Shown piece after piece: positions 7,727 through 16,390 of a stretch of 47,894 nucleotides of DNA. The DNA comes from Pseudoxanthomonas sangjuensis. GTDB lineage: Bacteria > Pseudomonadota > Gammaproteobacteria > Xanthomonadales > Xanthomonadaceae. The stretch is from contig NZ_PDWR01000027.1 of assembly GCF_010211755.1 (NCBI RefSeq), positions 1 to 47,894 on the forward strand, written 5' to 3'. Each line of letters begins with the position of its first letter. Within the stretch, counting starts at the first letter, position 1. Position numbers and translations under genes: made by a program. A model generated the notes under the pieces. That model ran no database searches and was not told where the DNA came from. It saw only the letters and a list, made by a program, of their open reading frames with translations.

Positions 7727-7802
7727 GGGCCGTTAGCTCAGTTGGTAGAGCAGTTGACTCTTAATCAATAGGTCCAAGGTTCGAATCCTTGACGGCCCAC
7801 CA
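7727..7802 (+). tRNA. tRNA-Lys (CTT), integration target
   Basis: A 76-nt cloverleaf. The acceptor stem is GGGCCGT/ACGGCCC, the anticodon loop is CTCTTAA with anticodon CTT, and CCA is encoded. Its 3' part from 7758 on, plus one base, is repeated exactly at 9332-9377. This is the signature of site-specific integration at a tRNA 3' end. The gene stays intact because the junction repeat restores the full sequence. Confidence 0.97.
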
Positions 7803-7803
7803 A
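7758..7803 (+). repeat. Left attachment site (attL), 46-bp direct repeat
   Basis: It starts at the anticodon loop of tRNA-Lys and runs through CCA plus one A. It is identical over 46 bp to 9332-9377; the flanking bases differ on both sides (A vs C before, T vs A after). Confidence 0.93.
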
Positions 7804-7810
7804 TAAAGAC

Positions 7811-7845
7811 AAGGACTTAGGTGCAAACCTGGGTCCTTTTTCTTT
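7811..7845 (+). terminator. Terminator directly after tRNA-Lys, brought in by the island
   Basis: AAGGACTTAGG (7811-7821) pairs with CCTGGGTCCTT (7828-7838), with two G-T wobbles, a 6-nt loop and a T-rich tail to 7845. It lies inside the island, so it replaces the original terminator that now stands at 9383-9412. Confidence 0.85.
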
Positions 7846-7881
7846 GGAAATTGGAAAAATTCCTGGAAAAACTCTGGAAAA
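7844..7881. repeat. Tandem GGAAA/GGAAAAA motifs in the left arm of the island
   Basis: Four copies of GGAAA to GGAAAAA occur within about 40 bp. The 14-mer TTGGAAAAATTCCT (7851-7864) recurs exactly at 9227-9240 near the other end. Its core GGAA-AAA-TTCC is palindromic. Repeats of this sort near both ends of an island are typical of integrase arm-type or excisionase binding sites; that role is inferred. Confidence 0.55.
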
Positions 7882-7991
7882 ATGAAGCCCTTCAAAGCCA
7901 TGTGGAATGGTCTCAGGGGAGTTGATGGAGTTAGGGTGATCAATTGCTCTAGACGGCGCTTTGGCGGGGGTAAGGGGCATGACCAAATTGC

Positions 7992-8030
7992 CTAGGGCGT
8001 CTCATTAACGCCTAGACAACGTTGTACAAT
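7992..8030 (+). promoter_or_regulatory. Palindrome cluster and -10 box upstream of the island genes
   Basis: The inverted repeat CTAGGGCGT/ACGCCTAG (7992-8000 with 8008-8015, one bulge) is followed by the perfect palindrome ACAACGTTGT (8016-8025). That overlaps TTGTACAA (8022-8029), which contains a -10-like TACAAT (8025-8030). No good -35 is visible at the right distance; the first palindrome occupies that region. This looks like an operator overlapping a regulated promoter. Confidence 0.45.
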
Positions 8031-8172
8031 CCTTAACGCCGGCTGCCGAAAGGCTAAACAAAGCCGATAGCCGGTCAGGGGATCGGGGGCTTTTTTAACA
8101 ATCTCCTAACAGATTTGTTGTAATTCTGGTCGTGGCGAAAAAACGCCACTGTCGGCCTGCCACGTGCAGGCC
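8031..8172 (+). ncRNA. Structured leader or small RNA with possible attenuator
   Basis: This interval precedes the island genes and can form a chain of hairpins. They are: CCGGCT/AGCCGG (8039-8044 with 8069-8074) enclosing GGCT/AGCC (8052-8055 with 8062-8065); a terminator stem (8060-8068 with 8082-8093); 8097-8104 with 8111-8119; a GTGGCG/CGCCAC stem (8132-8137 with 8144-8149); and GGCCTGC/GCAGGCC (8154-8160 with 8166-8172). The inner GGCT/AGCC pairing shares bases with the terminator stem, so the two compete. Whether this is a leader or a free small RNA of about 65 nt ending at 8096 cannot be decided. It matches no riboswitch I recognise. Confidence 0.4.
8060..8096 (+). terminator. Terminator-like hairpin in the leader of the island genes
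   Basis: AAAGCCGAT (8060-8068) pairs with ATCGG(GG)GCTTT (8082-8093, two bulged G) followed by an unbroken T6 run (8091-8096). It lies about 100 bp upstream of the 65-aa gene. It would end a short transcript or act as an attenuator. Confidence 0.6.
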
Positions 8173-8196
8173 AATCGTGTATGCATTGAGGTACTA

Positions 8197-8394
8197 ATGG
8201 AGACGCAAATGAACGCTCAACAGATTGCCAAAGATAAGCTTTTTGGCGAAGCGGGGCTGCGCGCGTCCAATTTCAAGCTGTTCCCGGGTCGTTCTAGGGA
8301 CGCGACGGCTGAGCAGGTCGCTCAACAAATTGTCGGATCAATTGAACGGATCGAAAAAGGTGAGCTTCAAGTCGTCGAAGACTTCGAGGACTGA
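8197..8394 (+). CDS. Small island protein, 65 aa, unknown function
   Basis: I do not recognise a named family. The protein begins METQMNAQQIAKDKLFG and ends in an acidic tail (VVEDFED). The middle GASNFKLFPG-like stretch (RASNFKLFPGRSRD) and a helix-friendly segment (AEQVAQQIVGSIERIEKG) look folded rather than random. The ATG at 8197 has GAGG five nucleotides upstream; the ATG at 8209 has GGAG six nucleotides upstream and would give 61 aa, so the exact start is open. Only 6 bp separate it from the next gene, so the two are almost certainly cotranscribed. Small size, acidic end and pairing would suit an antitoxin or adaptor, but no DNA-binding motif is clear. Confidence 0.75.
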   Translation: METQMNAQQIAKDKLFGEAGLRASNFKLFPGRSRDATAEQVAQQIVGSIERIEKGELQVVEDFED

Positions 8395-8400
8395 TATTGC

Positions 8401-8985
8401 ATGCCTTATGGGGATCTGTATCAGTACGCGCAAAGTCTTGCTCCGGTTGTCAACCGGAATTTGATCCGAGACAAGATAATCCAGCTGACCGGTATTGCCG
8501 GCTTTCGATGTTTTGTCGATCCTGGTCTGGATCCAAACATTACGAGCGGGTACTACGTGTCGCCGTCAAATGAGGATAGCCAGTTCGCTCGCCAAGCGAA
8601 CGGCAGGCACGTCATCGCCTATGCCCAAGGCCTGAATCGGTGCTGGCAGAGATTCGTCACCGTCAAAGAAATGATGCATGTGTTCGATGAAGTGCTGGAG
8701 TGCACCAATTCGGAAGCTGACTTGGATCTGCTGCTTTCCAATTTCTACGGCGGTGCTGACACAAGTGGGGAAATCTGCCCGCAGATGAAATCCGAAGTTA
8801 AGTGCTTCTGGATGGCCGTCGGCGTGCTTTGTCCAGAGAGGACTCGAGTCGAGCTTCAGCAAAAGAGGGATGCTGGGGAGCTAACTGACTACCAGATCGC
8901 GGATTACCTGAAAGTTCCTGAGGTTTATGTTCCGAACTTCTTCAATCCGAGATACAAGCATTTGCTGGCAAGCCTTACTGACTGA
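8401..8985 (+). CDS. Degenerate ImmA/IrrE-like metallopeptidase homologue, 194 aa
   Basis: The pattern RFVTVKEMMHVFDE (residues 84-97), followed about 35 residues later by KSEVKCFWMAVGVLCPE (130-146), has the layout of the ImmA/IrrE (DUF955) zinc peptidases. In those, an HExxH helix is followed by an ExxA-type helix ending in L-x-P. The region after it (ELTDYQIADYLKVPEVYV) looks like the usual C-terminal segment. The first zinc-binding His is replaced: the motif reads K89-E90-M91-M92-H93, with E132 as the likely third ligand. The protein may bind metal poorly or work as a non-catalytic regulator. ImmA-type proteins cleave or regulate phage repressors, and many sit in toxin-antitoxin or phage loci. 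Family assignment is by eye. It is second in a two-gene island operon, with a terminator 18 bp after the stop. Confidence 0.7.
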   Translation: MPYGDLYQYAQSLAPVVNRNLIRDKIIQLTGIAGFRCFVDPGLDPNITSGYYVSPSNEDSQFARQANGRHVIAYAQGLNRCWQRFVTVKEMMHVFDEVLECTNSEADLDLLLSNFYGGADTSGEICPQMKSEVKCFWMAVGVLCPERTRVELQQKRDAGELTDYQIADYLKVPEVYVPNFFNPRYKHLLASLTD

Positions 8986-9002
8986 ACTTGGCGGCCTCCT
9001 AT

Positions 9003-9026
9003 AAACCTCGCTTCGGCGGGGTTTTT
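9003..9026. terminator. Terminator after the island operon
   Basis: AAACCTCGC (9003-9011) pairs with GCGGGGTTT (9016-9024, one wobble) around TTCG, followed by T5. On the minus strand the stem is followed by TTTATAG, so it could also end transcription of the small convergent frame at 9050-9196. Confidence 0.9.
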
Positions 9027-9049
9027 GTTTGCGTCTGGAAATCCTTGAG

Positions 9050-9196
9050 CTACACATTGACGTCCGTTGATGGGGCTATTCCGTTTTTGCCCGGGAGCGG
9101 ATGGTGCTCCTGCTCTCCAGTACCGGTGAAGATCACAACGGAGGGGTCATCCTTGGTTGCGTTCAGCTCCTTTGCCGCTGCTAGTTGGGTGTTCAT
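9050..9196 (-). CDS. Possible 48-aa small protein of the island
   Basis: A 48-codon frame starting MNTQLAAAKELNATKDDPSV and ending PSTDVNV, with ordinary-looking soluble composition. It runs towards the 194-aa gene and stops 23 bp before the shared terminator. A weak promoter is possible upstream: TTGCGA (9240-9245), an 18-nt gap, then CATAGC (9216-9221) on the minus strand. The ribosome site is poor (GGGG almost touching the ATG). It could equally be a chance frame or the stub of a lost gene. Confidence 0.3.
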   Translation of the reverse strand: MNTQLAAAKELNATKDDPSVVIFTGTGEQEHHPLPGKNGIAPSTDVNV

Positions 9197-9226
9197 GCCC
9201 CAGCAGCACCATCACGCTATGGGAAC

Positions 9227-9240
9227 TTGGAAAAATTCCT
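9227..9240. repeat. Right copy of the 14-bp subterminal repeat
   Basis: TTGGAAAAATTCCT, identical to 7851-7864 in the left arm. It lies 91 bp inside the right attachment site. If the weak minus-strand promoter before the 48-aa frame is real, this repeat fills its spacer. Confidence 0.55.
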
Positions 9241-9331
9241 CGCAAGTGCTTGAATGTGCGCCGCCTGATGTTGATGGTTTTGGAAATTTGGCGCGGCCTA
9301 ACCTGTTGATCTAAGGCATCACTTGCGTTGC

Positions 9332-9377
9332 CTCTTAATCAATAGGTCCAAGGTTCGAATCCTTGACGGCCCACCAA
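9332..9377 (+). repeat. Right attachment site (attR), 46-bp direct repeat
   Basis: An exact second copy of the tRNA-Lys 3' end (anticodon loop through CCA plus A). It lacks the 5' half, so it is not a functional tRNA. The original cluster terminator follows six bases later. Confidence 0.93.
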
Positions 9378-9382
9378 ACACA

Positions 9383-9412
9383 AAAGCGCCCGGGTAACCC
9401 CGGGCGCTTTTT
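9383..9412 (+). terminator. Displaced terminator of the tRNA cluster
   Basis: A 12-bp perfect stem (9383-9394 with 9399-9410), a TAAC loop and TTTTT. It follows the attR repeat, so it was presumably the native terminator of tRNA-Lys before the island inserted. Confidence 0.92.
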
Positions 9413-9443: not shown

Positions 9444-9530
<87 letters not shown>

Positions 9531-9949: not shown

Positions 9950-10224
9950 GCGGCGCCGCCTTCGAGCAGCGGCTCGAGCTTGCCTTCGCGGTGCAGCGCC
10001 ATCATGTCGTCGTAGCCGCCGACGTGGGTGTCGCCGATGAAGATCTGCGGCACGCTGGTGCGCCGGGTCAGGGCGACCATCTTCTCGCGCTCGGCCGGGT
10101 CGGCATCGATCCGGACCTCGGTCCACGAGCGGCCCTTGCTCTTGAGGAAATTCTTGGCCGCCACGCAGTAGGGGCAGACTGCGGTCGAGTAGATGGTGAT
10201 CTTCGGGACGGCGGTGTCGTTCAT
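9946..10224 (-). CDS. grxC: Glutaredoxin 3
   Basis: A 92-aa glutathione-dependent disulfide reductase with a thioredoxin fold. The dithiol active site C17-P-Y-C20 is of the classical Grx type. TSVPQIFIG carries the conserved cis-proline, and GGYDDM is the usual glutathione-contact region. Length and motifs match E. coli GrxC (83 aa). The start MNDTAVPK is chosen because the open frame upstream is non-homologous. Its stop overlaps the start of the AhpD-like gene, and it is divergent from the BepA-like protease. Confidence 0.95.
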   Translation of the reverse strand: MNDTAVPKITIYSTAVCPYCVAAKNFLKSKGRSWTEVRIDADPAEREKMVALTRRTSVPQIFIGDTHVGGYDDMMALHREGKLEPLLEGGAA

Positions 10225-10396: not shown

Positions 10397-12058
10397 TTGC
10401 GCCACCGCCTGCCCATCTTCCTGTTCGCCGCCGCCCTGACTTTCGCGGCCGGCACGCCGCCGGCCCCGGCGCAGGAGGCAAAGCTGCCGGACATCGGCTC
10501 CTCGGCCGGCGAAGTACTGACCCCGGCCAAGCAGGCCGAGTACGGCAGCATGGTGATGCGCGAGCTGCGCAACTACGGCTACCTGCTCGACGACCCGCTG
10601 ATCGACCAGTGGCTGGACACCGTCGGCCGGCGCCTGGGCGCGAACAGCGACGATCCGCGCCAGCCGTTCACCTTCTTCATGCTGAAGGAACGGCAGATCA
10701 ACGCCTTCGCCACCCTCGGCGGCTACATTGCGGTCAATTCCGGGCTGGTGCTGACCGCCGAGAGCGAGGACGAGGTTGCCGCGGTGCTTTCGCACGAGAT
10801 CGCCCACGTGACCCAGCAACACGTATTGCGCGCGGTGGAGCGCGCGCAACGCGACCAGGTGCCGATCCTGCTGGGCATGCTCGCCGCGATCGCGCTGGCG
10901 CAGAGCGCCGGCGGCAACTCCAGCGACGACGCGGCGATGGCCGCGATGGCCAGCGGCATGGGCCTGATGCAGCAGCGCCAGATCGACTACACCCGTTCCA
11001 ACGAGGCCGAGGCCGACCGCGTCGGCATCCACACCCTGTCGCGCGCCGGCTACGACGTCGATGCGATGGCCGGCTTCTTCGGGCGCCTGCAACTGGCGAT
11101 GCGCGGCAACCGCGGCGACGAGCGCAGCCGGGTGCCCGACTACCTGCAGACCCACCCGGTCACCACCACCCGCATCAGCGAGGCGCACGATCGCGCCGAA
11201 CAGCTCAAGCGCAGCGGCACGGTCGTCACTTCCACCACCGCCACGCCCGGCAACGTCCGCACCGAGAAATTCGTGCGCCAGCCCGACTACGCCGGTTCCG
11301 CGCCGGGCACGCTGAACCCGCTGCTGCCGTCCTCGCTGCGCCTGCCCCCCAGCGCGCCGGTCGGCGGCGACACCGGCCAGTTCGACTGGGCGCGCGAACG
11401 CCTGCGCGTGCTCAGCGCCGACACGCCGGCGGTGGCGGTGCGCGAATACGAAAGCATCCGCCGCAACACCCCGGGCGGCCTCAGCGACGCCCAGCAATAC
11501 GGCCTGGCGCTGGCGCGGATGCTCGGCAGCGAGCCCGCGCGCGCCGCCAGCGACCTTGCCGGCCTGCTGAAGCAGGACCCGGACAACCTGTGGATCGCCC
11601 TGGCCCTGGCCCAGGCCGAATCCCGCAGCGGCCACGGCGCCGATGCCGAACGCCGCTTCGCCGACCTGCTGCGCCGCCACCCCCACCACCGCGCGATCGC
11701 CCTGACCTACGCGCAGGCGTTGAACGAACAGGGCGGCCGCGAAGCCGGCCTGCGTGCCCAGGCGATATTGCGGCCGCTGCTGGCCGCTTCCGCCGACGAT
11801 CCGGTGTTCCAGCGCAGCTTCGCCCGCGCCTACGAGCTGGCCGGCGACCAGATCCGTGCCGGCGAGGCCTACGCCGAGGCCGCCTTCCTGAGCGGGCGCG
11901 CCGAGCAGGCCCTGGTCCAGTTGCAGAACCTGAAGAAGCGCGACGACCTGGACTACTACGCCCGCGCCCGGATCGACGCGCGCATCGCCGCGATCACCCC
12001 GCAGGTGCTGGAACTGCATCGCCAGGGCATCAAGGACCCGGACCTGGGGCGGCGCTGA
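10397..12058 (+). CDS. bepA: BepA-like M48 metalloprotease with TPR domain
   Basis: A 553-aa periplasmic protease/chaperone of the outer-membrane assembly quality-control system. A signal peptide (residues 1-26, ending PAPAQE) leads into an M48 domain with H133-E-I-A-H137. The Glu ligand lies in NEAEAD (E203, with D207). The C-terminal half (about 350-553) is alanine-rich helical repeat typical of the BepA TPR superhelix that docks on BamA/LptD. The start is a TTG at 10397 with GGAG six nucleotides upstream. No ATG gives a proper signal peptide; this is inferred. E. coli BepA is 487 aa. Confidence 0.88.
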   Translation: MRHRLPIFLFAAALTFAAGTPPAPAQEAKLPDIGSSAGEVLTPAKQAEYGSMVMRELRNYGYLLDDPLIDQWLDTVGRRLGANSDDPRQPFTFFMLKERQINAFATLGGYIAVNSGLVLTAESEDEVAAVLSHEIAHVTQQHVLRAVERAQRDQVPILLGMLAAIALAQSAGGNSSDDAAMAAMASGMGLMQQRQIDYTRSNEAEADRVGIHTLSRAGYDVDAMAGFFGRLQLAMRGNRGDERSRVPDYLQTHPVTTTRISEAHDRAEQLKRSGTVVTSTTATPGNVRTEKFVRQPDYAGSAPGTLNPLLPSSLRLPPSAPVGGDTGQFDWARERLRVLSADTPAVAVREYESIRRNTPGGLSDAQQYGLALARMLGSEPARAASDLAGLLKQDPDNLWIALALAQAESRSGHGADAERRFADLLRRHPHHRAIALTYAQALNEQGGREAGLRAQAILRPLLAASADDPVFQRSFARAYELAGDQIRAGEAYAEAAFLSGRAEQALVQLQNLKKRDDLDYYARARIDARIAAITPQVLELHRQGIKDPDLGRR

Positions 12059-14297: not shown

Positions 14298-16390
14298 GCT
14301 CGCCCCATCCCGCCCTGCCGAAGATCGAAACGCCGAGCAGCGGCGACCCGCTGCGCGACCCCGCGCTGTACCTCAACCGCGAGCTGTCGCAGCTCGACTT
14401 CAACTTCCGCGTGCTGGCGCAGGCGCAGGACCCGCAGGTGCCGCTGCTGGAGCGATTGAGATTTCTGTGCATCAGCTGCACCAACCTCGACGAGTTCTTC
14501 GAGATCCGCGCCGCGACCGTGCGCCATGCGCAGGCCTTCGGCCTGCCGCCCGGCCCCGACGGGCTGCCGCCGGCGACGATCCTGGCGCGCATCCACGACC
14601 GCGCCGCGCAACTGGTCGAGGCGCAATACAGGTTCTGGAACGAGACGCTGCGCCCGGCATTGGCCGAGGCCGGCGTGCGCGTGCTCGGGCGCGCGCAGTG
14701 GAACGCACGGCACAAGCGCTGGCTGCGCGCGTATTTCCGCAAGGAAATCATGCCGGTGCTGTCGCCGCTGGGACTGGATCCGTCGCACCCGTTCCCGAAG
14801 ATCCTCAACAAGTCGCTGAACATCGTCGTGGTGCTGAAGGGCAAGGACGCGTTCGGCCGCAGCGGCCACCACGCGATCGTGCGCGCGCCGCGCTCGCTGC
14901 CTCGCATCATCCACCTGCCGCGGCGCGTGTCCGGCGGCGAGCACGACTTCGTGCTGCTGTCGTCGGTGCTGTCGCACTTCGTCGACGAACTGTTCCCCGG
15001 CATGGAGGTCAGGGGCGCCTACCAGTTCCGCGTGACCCGCGACTCCGAGGTGGTGGTCGACGAGGAGGAAGTGGAGAACCTGGCGCTGGCGCTGCGCGAC
15101 GAACTGGCCGCGCGCGGCTACCGCCCGGCGGTACGGCTGGAGATCGGCAGGGACGCGCCGAAGCCGATCGTGCGCATGCTGCTGCAGAACTTCGAATTGA
15201 GCGAGAACGCGGTCTACGCGATCGACGGCCCGGTCAACCTGAACCGCGTGATCCAGGTCTACGACCTGGTGGAGCGGCCGGAACTGAAGTACCCCGCGTT
15301 CACCCCGCGCGCGCTGCGCGGCGGCGACGCGATGTTCGAGCGGGTCGGCGGCGGCGACGTGCTGCTGCACCACCCGTTCGATTCGTTCGCGCCGGTGCTG
15401 GAACTGCTGCGCCAGGCCGCGGTCGACCCCGACGTGCTGGCGATCAAGCAAACGCTGTACCGCACCGCCAAGGATTCGGTGATCGTCGATTCGCTGGTCC
15501 AGGCCGCGCGCAACGGCAAGGACGTGACCGCGGTGGTCGAACTGCGCGCGCGCTTCGACGAGGAAGCCAACCTCGCCTTCGCCGACCGCCTACAGGAAGC
15601 CGGCGTACAGGTCGTGTACGGCGTGGTCGGCTACAAGACCCACGGCAAGATGCTGCTGATCGTGCGCCGCGAGGGCCGCAAGCTGCGCCGCTACGTGCAC
15701 CTGGGCACCGGCAACTACCACAGCGGCACCGCGCGCACCTATACCGACTTCGGCCTGGTCACCGCCGACCCCGACATCGGCGACGACGTGCACATGCTGT
15801 TCCAGCAATTGTCCGGCATGGCCCCTTCCGCCGGTTTCAAGCGCATCCTGCAGTCGCCGTTCACCCTGCACGCGGCGCTGCTGAGGAAGATCGAACGCGA
15901 GGCGAAGCTGGCGGAGGCCGGCAAGCGCGGCCGCATCATCGCCAAGGTCAACGCGCTGAACGAGCCGCAGGTGATCCGCGCGCTGTACGCGGCCTCGCAG
16001 GCCGGCGTGCGGATCGACCTGATCGTGCGCGGCGCCTGCACGCTGCGCCCCGGCGTGCCCGGCGTTTCCGAGAACATCCGCGTGCGCTCGATCGTCGGCC
16101 GCTTCCTCGAACACAGCCGCGTGTACTGGTTCGGCAACGACGGCAAGCCGGAGATCTTCTGCGCCAGCGCCGACTGGCTGGAACGCAACCTGCTGCACCG
16201 CGTGGAGGTCGCCTTCCCGATCCTCGACCCGGACCTGGCCCGGCGCGTGTTCGACGAAGCGCTGCAGAACTACCTGGACGACAACTGCAACGCATGGACG
16301 CTCGATGCCGACGGCAGCTACCGCCAGCTGTCGCCCGGCCCCGGCGAGGAACCGCACTCGGCGCAGGCGGCATTGCTGGCGAAGGTATAG
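14294..16390 (+). CDS. ppk: Polyphosphate kinase 1
   Basis: A 698-aa enzyme that polymerises the gamma-phosphate of ATP into polyphosphate. N-terminal YLNRELSQLDFN is a family hallmark. The catalytic histidines are at H450 (YKTHGK, phosphorylated in E. coli Ppk as H435) and H607 (FLEHSRVYWF, E. coli H592). The conserved HLGTGNYH and SADWLERN segments are present. The length agrees with xanthomonad Ppk1. Its start overlaps the phoR stop, so synthesis is coupled to the phosphate sensor. Confidence 0.97.
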   Translation: MSSPHPALPKIETPSSGDPLRDPALYLNRELSQLDFNFRVLAQAQDPQVPLLERLRFLCISCTNLDEFFEIRAATVRHAQAFGLPPGPDGLPPATILARIHDRAAQLVEAQYRFWNETLRPALAEAGVRVLGRAQWNARHKRWLRAYFRKEIMPVLSPLGLDPSHPFPKILNKSLNIVVVLKGKDAFGRSGHHAIVRAPRSLPRIIHLPRRVSGGEHDFVLLSSVLSHFVDELFPGMEVRGAYQFRVTRDSEVVVDEEEVENLALALRDELAARGYRPAVRLEIGRDAPKPIVRMLLQNFELSENAVYAIDGPVNLNRVIQVYDLVERPELKYPAFTPRALRGGDAMFERVGGGDVLLHHPFDSFAPVLELLRQAAVDPDVLAIKQTLYRTAKDSVIVDSLVQAARNGKDVTAVVELRARFDEEANLAFADRLQEAGVQVVYGVVGYKTHGKMLLIVRREGRKLRRYVHLGTGNYHSGTARTYTDFGLVTADPDIGDDVHMLFQQLSGMAPSAGFKRILQSPFTLHAALLRKIEREAKLAEAGKRGRIIAKVNALNEPQVIRALYAASQAGVRIDLIVRGACTLRPGVPGVSENIRVRSIVGRFLEHSRVYWFGNDGKPEIFCASADWLERNLLHRVEVAFPILDPDLARRVFDEALQNYLDDNCNAWTLDADGSYRQLSPGPGEEPHSAQAALLAKV

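Follow-up and report, generated by a model that had tools for sequence, protein, structure and literature searches.

A well-bounded, integrase-less island at the 3' end of tRNA-Lys(CTT) in Pseudoxanthomonas sangjuensis and the gene pair it carries

How does a 1.57-kb stretch of DNA come to lie in the 3' end of a tRNA gene with both of its apparent attachment sites and no integrase of its own, and what keeps it there? The question is raised by a locus of Pseudoxanthomonas sangjuensis (assembly GCF_010211755.1, contig NZ_PDWR01000027.1, from a draft genome of 76 contigs), of which we analysed a stretch of 47,894 nt, referred to below as the window. Here tRNA-Pro, tRNA-Arg, tRNA-His and tRNA-Lys(CTT) follow one another consecutively, and the next tRNA gene, tRNA-Leu(TAG) (9444-9528), lies 1.64 kb further on, beyond an island that carries a two-gene operon. 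We consider it probable that this island is a non-autonomous element resembling a cis-mobilizable element (CIME), probably derived from a prophage and kept for a pair of genes akin to the Rosmer toxin-antitoxin (TA) or defence systems. Loci and genomes are cited by our own handles (L and G numbers) where they have to be told apart.

A well-bounded island at tRNA-Lys(CTT)

The tRNA-Lys(CTT) gene (7727..7802, + strand) is intact according to ARAGORN and the Rfam tRNA model (76.8 bits), and its 3' half forms the proximal attachment site. The direct repeat that brackets the island (7753-7803 and 9327-9377) is identical at 50 of 51 positions and contains the perfect 46-bp core that the initial annotation had reported (7758-7803 and 9332-9377, spacing 1574), consisting of the tRNA-Lys(CTT) 3' half; a chance origin of the repeats is ruled out by the 46/46 identity. 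That the distal copy (9332..9377, + strand), a displaced tRNA-Lys 3' half, is perfect though it serves no tRNA argues for a recent event or a maintained site. The step in composition that had been estimated at roughly 50% against 70% GC was measured as 51.2% in the enclosed 1.57 kb against 69.2% in the remaining window, where the lowest GC of any other 1,528-base stretch, taken in steps of 50, is 64.3%.

The claim that the native terminator was displaced and replaced by one from the island also held. A scan for terminator-like hairpins found one directly 3' of tRNA-Lys (7811..7838, + strand) that is absent from five aligned empty sites, and another just past the distal repeat (9382..9411, no strand assigned) that the empty-site alignment identifies as the native hairpin of the tRNA cluster. 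A further hairpin lies 3' of the gene pair (9003..9024, + strand), with similar words elsewhere in 89 of the 394 other family genomes. The scan found four sites against 2.3 +/- 1.7 in shuffled sequences, so the number of hairpins is by itself no proof.

When the flanks are joined without the island, they are collinear with the naturally empty sites seen in five relatives, including at the native hairpin. A tRNA-His-Lys query matched in all 38 genomes of the genus, and the Lys-Leu interval of the other 37 measures 72-147 bp in 21, which look empty as the initial annotation had foreseen, 207-674 bp in seven and more than 1 kb in six; it has no value in the remaining three, where tRNA-Leu is inverted (G009), missing within 9 kb (G005) or cut off by a contig end (G034). 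The long inserts examined differ among themselves, and thus the site is a hot spot, as had also been proposed. One of them, in G014, is a 42.2-kb prophage-like insert at this tRNA-Lys; a perfect 48-bp repeat bounds it, and TCCGTAAAA lies near both ends. Its integrase-like open reading frame (ORF) matches Phage_int_M with an E-value of 0.015, which is sub-threshold in Pfam, so that the term prophage-like rests in part on our reading of the ORFs. Further partial copies of a tRNA tail with GGTTCGAATCCTTGACGGCC occur in G014 (L064-L066) and in L036. In G026, the site holds 1.6 kb at 54.6% GC with no distal repeat, and looks decayed.

Among the 395 family genomes, with two candidates scored per genome, we found no second copy of the island; in the 394 other than its own, its DNA gave short matches only, in 89 genomes and all at the hairpin region 8991-9042. 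Nor was the larger of its two proteins (194 aa) found in any of the 60 other relatives searched. Misassembly was assessed through the consistency of the sequence alone. Taken together, these observations confirm that the tRNA-Lys island is real and well bounded.

Arm-like repeats and the absence of a recombinase

Inside the attachment sites, both ends carry TTGGAAA repeats that look like the arm sites of an integrase. The left set (7844..7882, + strand) has TTGGAAA at 7844 and 7851 and the shorter TGGAAA at 7845, 7852, 7864 and 7875, spaced by about 11 bp, and Tandem Repeats Finder reports an 11-bp period at 7852-7882. The right set (9227..9286, + strand) has TTGGAAA at 9227 and 9280 and a 14-base word in common with 7851-7864. 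All four TTGGAAA copies have one orientation, and none occurs in the 46,194 window bases outside the island; TGGAAA has one further copy in mid-island. From left to right, the island thus comprises the proximal tRNA-half repeat and the left arm-like repeats, the two-gene operon, and the right arm-like repeats with the distal tRNA-half repeat; to judge from this layout, it has the two ends of a prophage integrated at a tRNA but none of the prophage between them.

The 14-base word, TTGGAAAAATTCCT, has exactly two copies genome-wide, one per island end, and a single extra copy with one mismatch, close to the start of an ORF; a resident helper sharing this arm word was not found. The arm sequence for which a matching prophage would be sought is TTGGAAAAATTCC. 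With up to two mismatches, the arm word matches in 38 of the 395 family genomes. Among the matches listed in the 394 other genomes, none marks a cognate element as judged from the words and their positions, and no two lie less than 100 kb apart on one contig. The arm word also matched six stretches of viral contigs, all AT-rich and without a tRNA, which we took as chance; the tRNA junction and left hairpin patterns had no match in viral contigs.

The initial annotation had also stated that the island encodes no recombinase, and we found neither a library match nor a convincing tblastn fragment to the contrary. Neither island gene reaches the cut-off of any library model, and seven other ORFs of the island match no Pfam family. 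Searching the island by tblastn with the recombinase ORFs of G014, L022, L016 and L015 and of three loci of its own genome (L060, L061 and L063) gave no convincing fragment (best E-value 0.26), in a search that did not cover the integrases of its own loci L057-L059, for which longer ORFs of other frames had been taken. Immediately 3' of tRNA-Thr(TGT), L060 (contig C75) has an ORF for a 431-aa tyrosine integrase, so this genome probably harbours a second tRNA element.

The two-gene cargo and its vehicles

Two island genes have relatives. The first encodes 61 aa (8209..8394, + strand), with the start set by conservation (the longest start given by the ORF tool is at 8164), and the second encodes the 194-aa protein (8401..8985, + strand). 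Of the two or three cargo genes of the initial annotation, two therefore stand and the third does not; the rest of its overall picture, an integrase-less tRNA island in a hot spot with a displaced terminator and empty sites in relatives, was borne out.

The 194-aa protein is predicted to adopt an ImmA/IrrE/CapP fold, that is, an ImmA/IrrE zincin fold overall, with the motif KEMMH at residues 89-93. A word-based search of 5.8 billion sequences returned 84 homologs, of which 79 have KExxH and none HExxH, the other five being fragments that end inside or before the motif; a lysine thus stands at the position of the first zinc-binding histidine of zincins. No family library puts a name on either protein. 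The window protein has no Pfam match to Peptidase_M78 (PF06114); among 25 relatives, one matches M78 (E-value 0.07), two match Peptidase_M76 (best 0.013) and five weakly match the PHROG 87 metallo-protease (best 0.0053). No helix-turn-helix (HTH) domain exceeds the Pfam cut-off in the pair, a PDB sequence search with alignment A4 returned two meaningless matches, and PADLOC gave a single weak, unrelated match for 25 members. The alignment with M78 used 14 of 22 matches, from which L156 and L157 were then removed because these two lack an HExxH column (A5 to A6, 12 rows).

In 31 of 32 loci, the small gene, found at E-values of at most 1.1e-7, directly precedes the large one on its strand; in the 32nd, L125, the match to the small gene is marginal (0.0066). 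Among the loci outside the building of the small-gene model, 13 of 14 pass. Some handles denote the same DNA: L008 and L122 refer to one record, L015 and L121 to one place, and L129 and L130 do not differ over the pair. The gene family is under purifying selection, and both window genes are intact. In the alphaproteobacterial L008 (L122), stop codons interrupt the 5' part of the large gene, and the small partner is intact; this copy was used from base 10085 onward only. In L023 and L010, hairpins that precede the small gene were considered as leaders and rejected as inconsistent across loci.

The pair travels on several kinds of vehicle. On phage contigs, it adjoins a CI-type repressor (L022, an element with its integrase beside tRNA-Gly), lies about 0.9 kb from a repressor (L023), between portal and prohead protease genes (L126), beside a terminase gene (L127), past a tail gene (L132), or between a CI-like repressor and RecT (L129/L130); L128 and L131 are viral contigs as well. 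In L016 it rides an integrase-bearing element at tRNA-Gln, and in L010 (20.6 kb) it lies at the end of a prophage at tRNA-Thr whose distal attachment copy was not found within the 20.6 kb. The same cargo beside an integrase at another tRNA-Lys, for which the initial annotation had advised searching, was not found, the relatives being at tRNA-Gly and tRNA-Gln. Tblastn of annotated phages and plasmids with the 194-aa protein of the window and its L004 homolog, and of annotated phages with the 61-aa protein, gave no match.

A transposase of a single IS1-like type directly follows the pair in six loci, with the IS1 domain over the Pfam cut-off in L009 and L021, just under it in L020, and recognised by eye in L013, L120 and L124; an IS1595 transposase precedes it in L017 (Pfam) and L018 (by eye). 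In L020 (9096-11820, 2.7 kb) and L021 (8892-11348, 2.5 kb), pair and transposase together are flanked by terminal inverted repeats (GGTAGTGTCTCAGTTTGAA) and by 8-bp target duplications, so the pair lies within a transposon as a passenger. No transposon ends were found in L009, L013, L017 and L018. Two IS1-linked loci have an extra small ORF, basic at one end, ahead of the pair (L009:9548-9766 and L120:938-1288). We recognised no vehicle at L004-L008, L011, L012, L014, L019, L123 and L125.

RosmerTA consists of the toxin RmrT and the ImmA-domain antitoxin RmrA (PMC10440598). With the system as described there, our pair has in common a two-gene operon, a protein of predicted ImmA-type fold beside a partner, and a link to phages; it differs in having KExxH instead of HExxH, no HTH over the Pfam cut-off and a partner whose fold has no assignment, and also in having no PADLOC match, in a release whose inclusion of a Rosmer model is unconfirmed. 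Most plausibly, the pair would work like RosmerTA or like the older COG2856-Xre prediction (PMC2701414); since HExxH is absent and no HTH exceeds the cut-off, we did not assign it to either. CapP of the cyclic-oligonucleotide-based antiphage signaling system (CBASS) pair CapH/CapP (PDB 7t5t) and PprI/IrrE differ from the window protein in that its first metal-motif histidine is replaced, and the island has no CapH-like repressor or CBASS gene. The carriage on phages and transposons and the ImmA/Rosmer-like predicted fold make a role in defence or competition plausible by analogy. We found no description of the pair or of integrase-less two-gene tRNA islands in a literature search that covered subscription journals thinly, so this absence is weak.

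Origin and maintenance of the island

A CIME is a decayed integrative and conjugative element (ICE) or integrative and mobilizable element (IME) that has lost its integration and transfer genes and kept the attachment sites attL and attR (PMC5704250). The window island likewise has no recognisable integration or transfer genes, lies in a tRNA 3' end and appears to keep both attachment sites; it differs in that no ICE or IME parent was found, that its cargo has relatives on phages and transposons, and that it comprises only two genes in 1.5 kb, accretion and transfer being putative. The tRNA prophage-like insert of G014 resembles it in the tRNA-half repeat, the arm-like repeats at both ends and a hairpin supplied by the element after the tRNA, but the window element has no integrase or phage genes and its arm words differ. 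Phage satellites such as phage-inducible chromosomal islands (PICI) and P4-like elements have, by definition, their own integrase and helper-exploiting genes, whereas the window island encodes no recognisable gene of either kind.

We prefer, with the probability stated above, the following history. The ancestor would have been a tRNA-integrated prophage that carried the pair next to the tRNA, an arrangement seen in L010, and that lost its body between the cargo and the distal arms. The insertion of the element would be the work of a foreign tyrosine integrase, encoded elsewhere, that recognised the tRNA core together with the arms, and would have restored tRNA-Lys. The element would be immobile alone, but would retain both ends needed by a matching incoming integrase, and it would persist through selection on the pair as an addiction or phage-defence module, in which the ImmA/IrrE-fold protein would hold or regulate the 61-aa partner as the ImmA-domain antitoxin of RosmerTA does its toxin.

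A parallel case occurs in Hyphobacterium indicum (Alphaproteobacteria; L015), where the 3' half of tRNA-Thr(TGT) is repeated over 46 bp, 1,501 bp apart, around the pair and unmatched short ORFs, with no integrase. There, the element has arm-like repeats of its own: GTGACCCC stands at 9310, 9327 and 9393 and at 10579, 10603 and 10627 in one orientation, with an extra copy outside at 16123, and both copies of TGTGACCCCCNG in that genome lie in the mini-island. The distance from the tRNA to the small gene is about 320 bp in L010, 400 in the window and 500 in L015, in the same orientation. L015 is the only one of 18 genome-scan loci with the mini-island form seen in the window, several of the others being short contigs. 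A serine recombinase gene (L015:10724-12268) starts outside this mini-island and has its 3' end inside the distal repeat.

The alternatives below overlap with the preferred history, and our probabilities for them are not meant to sum to one. It is possible, though we doubt it, that the island is a dead remnant whose ends survive through the recency of insertion and deletion, and which will not move again. The lack of a resident arm-word helper and the decayed-looking occupant in G026 agree with this, but the arm sets and cores are intact at both ends, as are the genes of a family under purifying selection, and the same reduction is found twice, in the window and in L015. As to the cargo, we think it unlikely that the pair is a regulator of lysogeny or mobility, namely, an ImmA-like anti-repressor with a small adaptor, instead of a TA or defence system. 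ImmA and PprI cleave repressors (PMC10904395, PMC2701414), and repressors neighbour the pair in L022, L023 and L129/L130; elsewhere, however, it lies among head genes, beside terminase or tail genes, and in or beside insertion sequences, and each of the 79 homologs covering the motif has KExxH in place of HExxH.

We regard as rather improbable a mini-satellite lineage that evolved to do without an integrase and relies for regular movement in trans on helper prophages sharing its core and arm sites, with the window and Hyphobacterium elements as two members. The two cases do agree in order and orientation although their host classes, tRNAs and arms differ, all 46 bp of both distal repeats still match perfectly, and the first right arm of L015 starts five bases past the stop codon, with nothing wasted. 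On the other hand, neither host genome holds a helper with the same arm word, the family genomes, at two candidates scored in each, gave no second island, and the DNA ends of the two elements differ, so any common lineage would be hypothetical. That the pair itself is a recombinase moving the mini-islands, whose sole common content besides the tRNA ends it is, we reject as highly improbable, since its predicted fold is zincin-like and not that of a recombinase and its other carriers have their own integrase or transposase. An assembly artefact, which a draft genome in 76 contigs and an insert bracketed by repeats might suggest, is scarcely credible beside the sharp GC step, the intact tRNA, the native terminator exactly past the distal repeat, the conserved genes and the parallel case.

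Should such elements be mobile, two ends and a cargo would be nearly the minimal DNA able to hitch-hike into a tRNA gene. The island also offers a compact, uncluttered system for testing how integrases act in trans. More speculatively, and with little confidence, they may represent a class of ultra-small tRNA elements, two integrase-binding ends around one addiction or defence operon moved by the integrases of others, whose cargo would be a new TA or anti-phage zincin system with an invariant KExxHxxD for HExxH and perhaps a different chemistry. The cargo and the Hyphobacterium twin hold more interest than the island alone: the pair is an undescribed, rare mobile module of tRNA islands, phages, IS1-like transposons and sites beside IS1595 elements, and its spread over these vehicles matches the behaviour of known TA and phage-defence modules. 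It occurs in 4 of 369 genomes around its own class, three of them distant, and in 6 of 385 around that of Hyphobacterium. Two contigs, the larger one 507,787 bases long, are given as sources of the small protein of the window (8209-8391), so another assembly may carry it.
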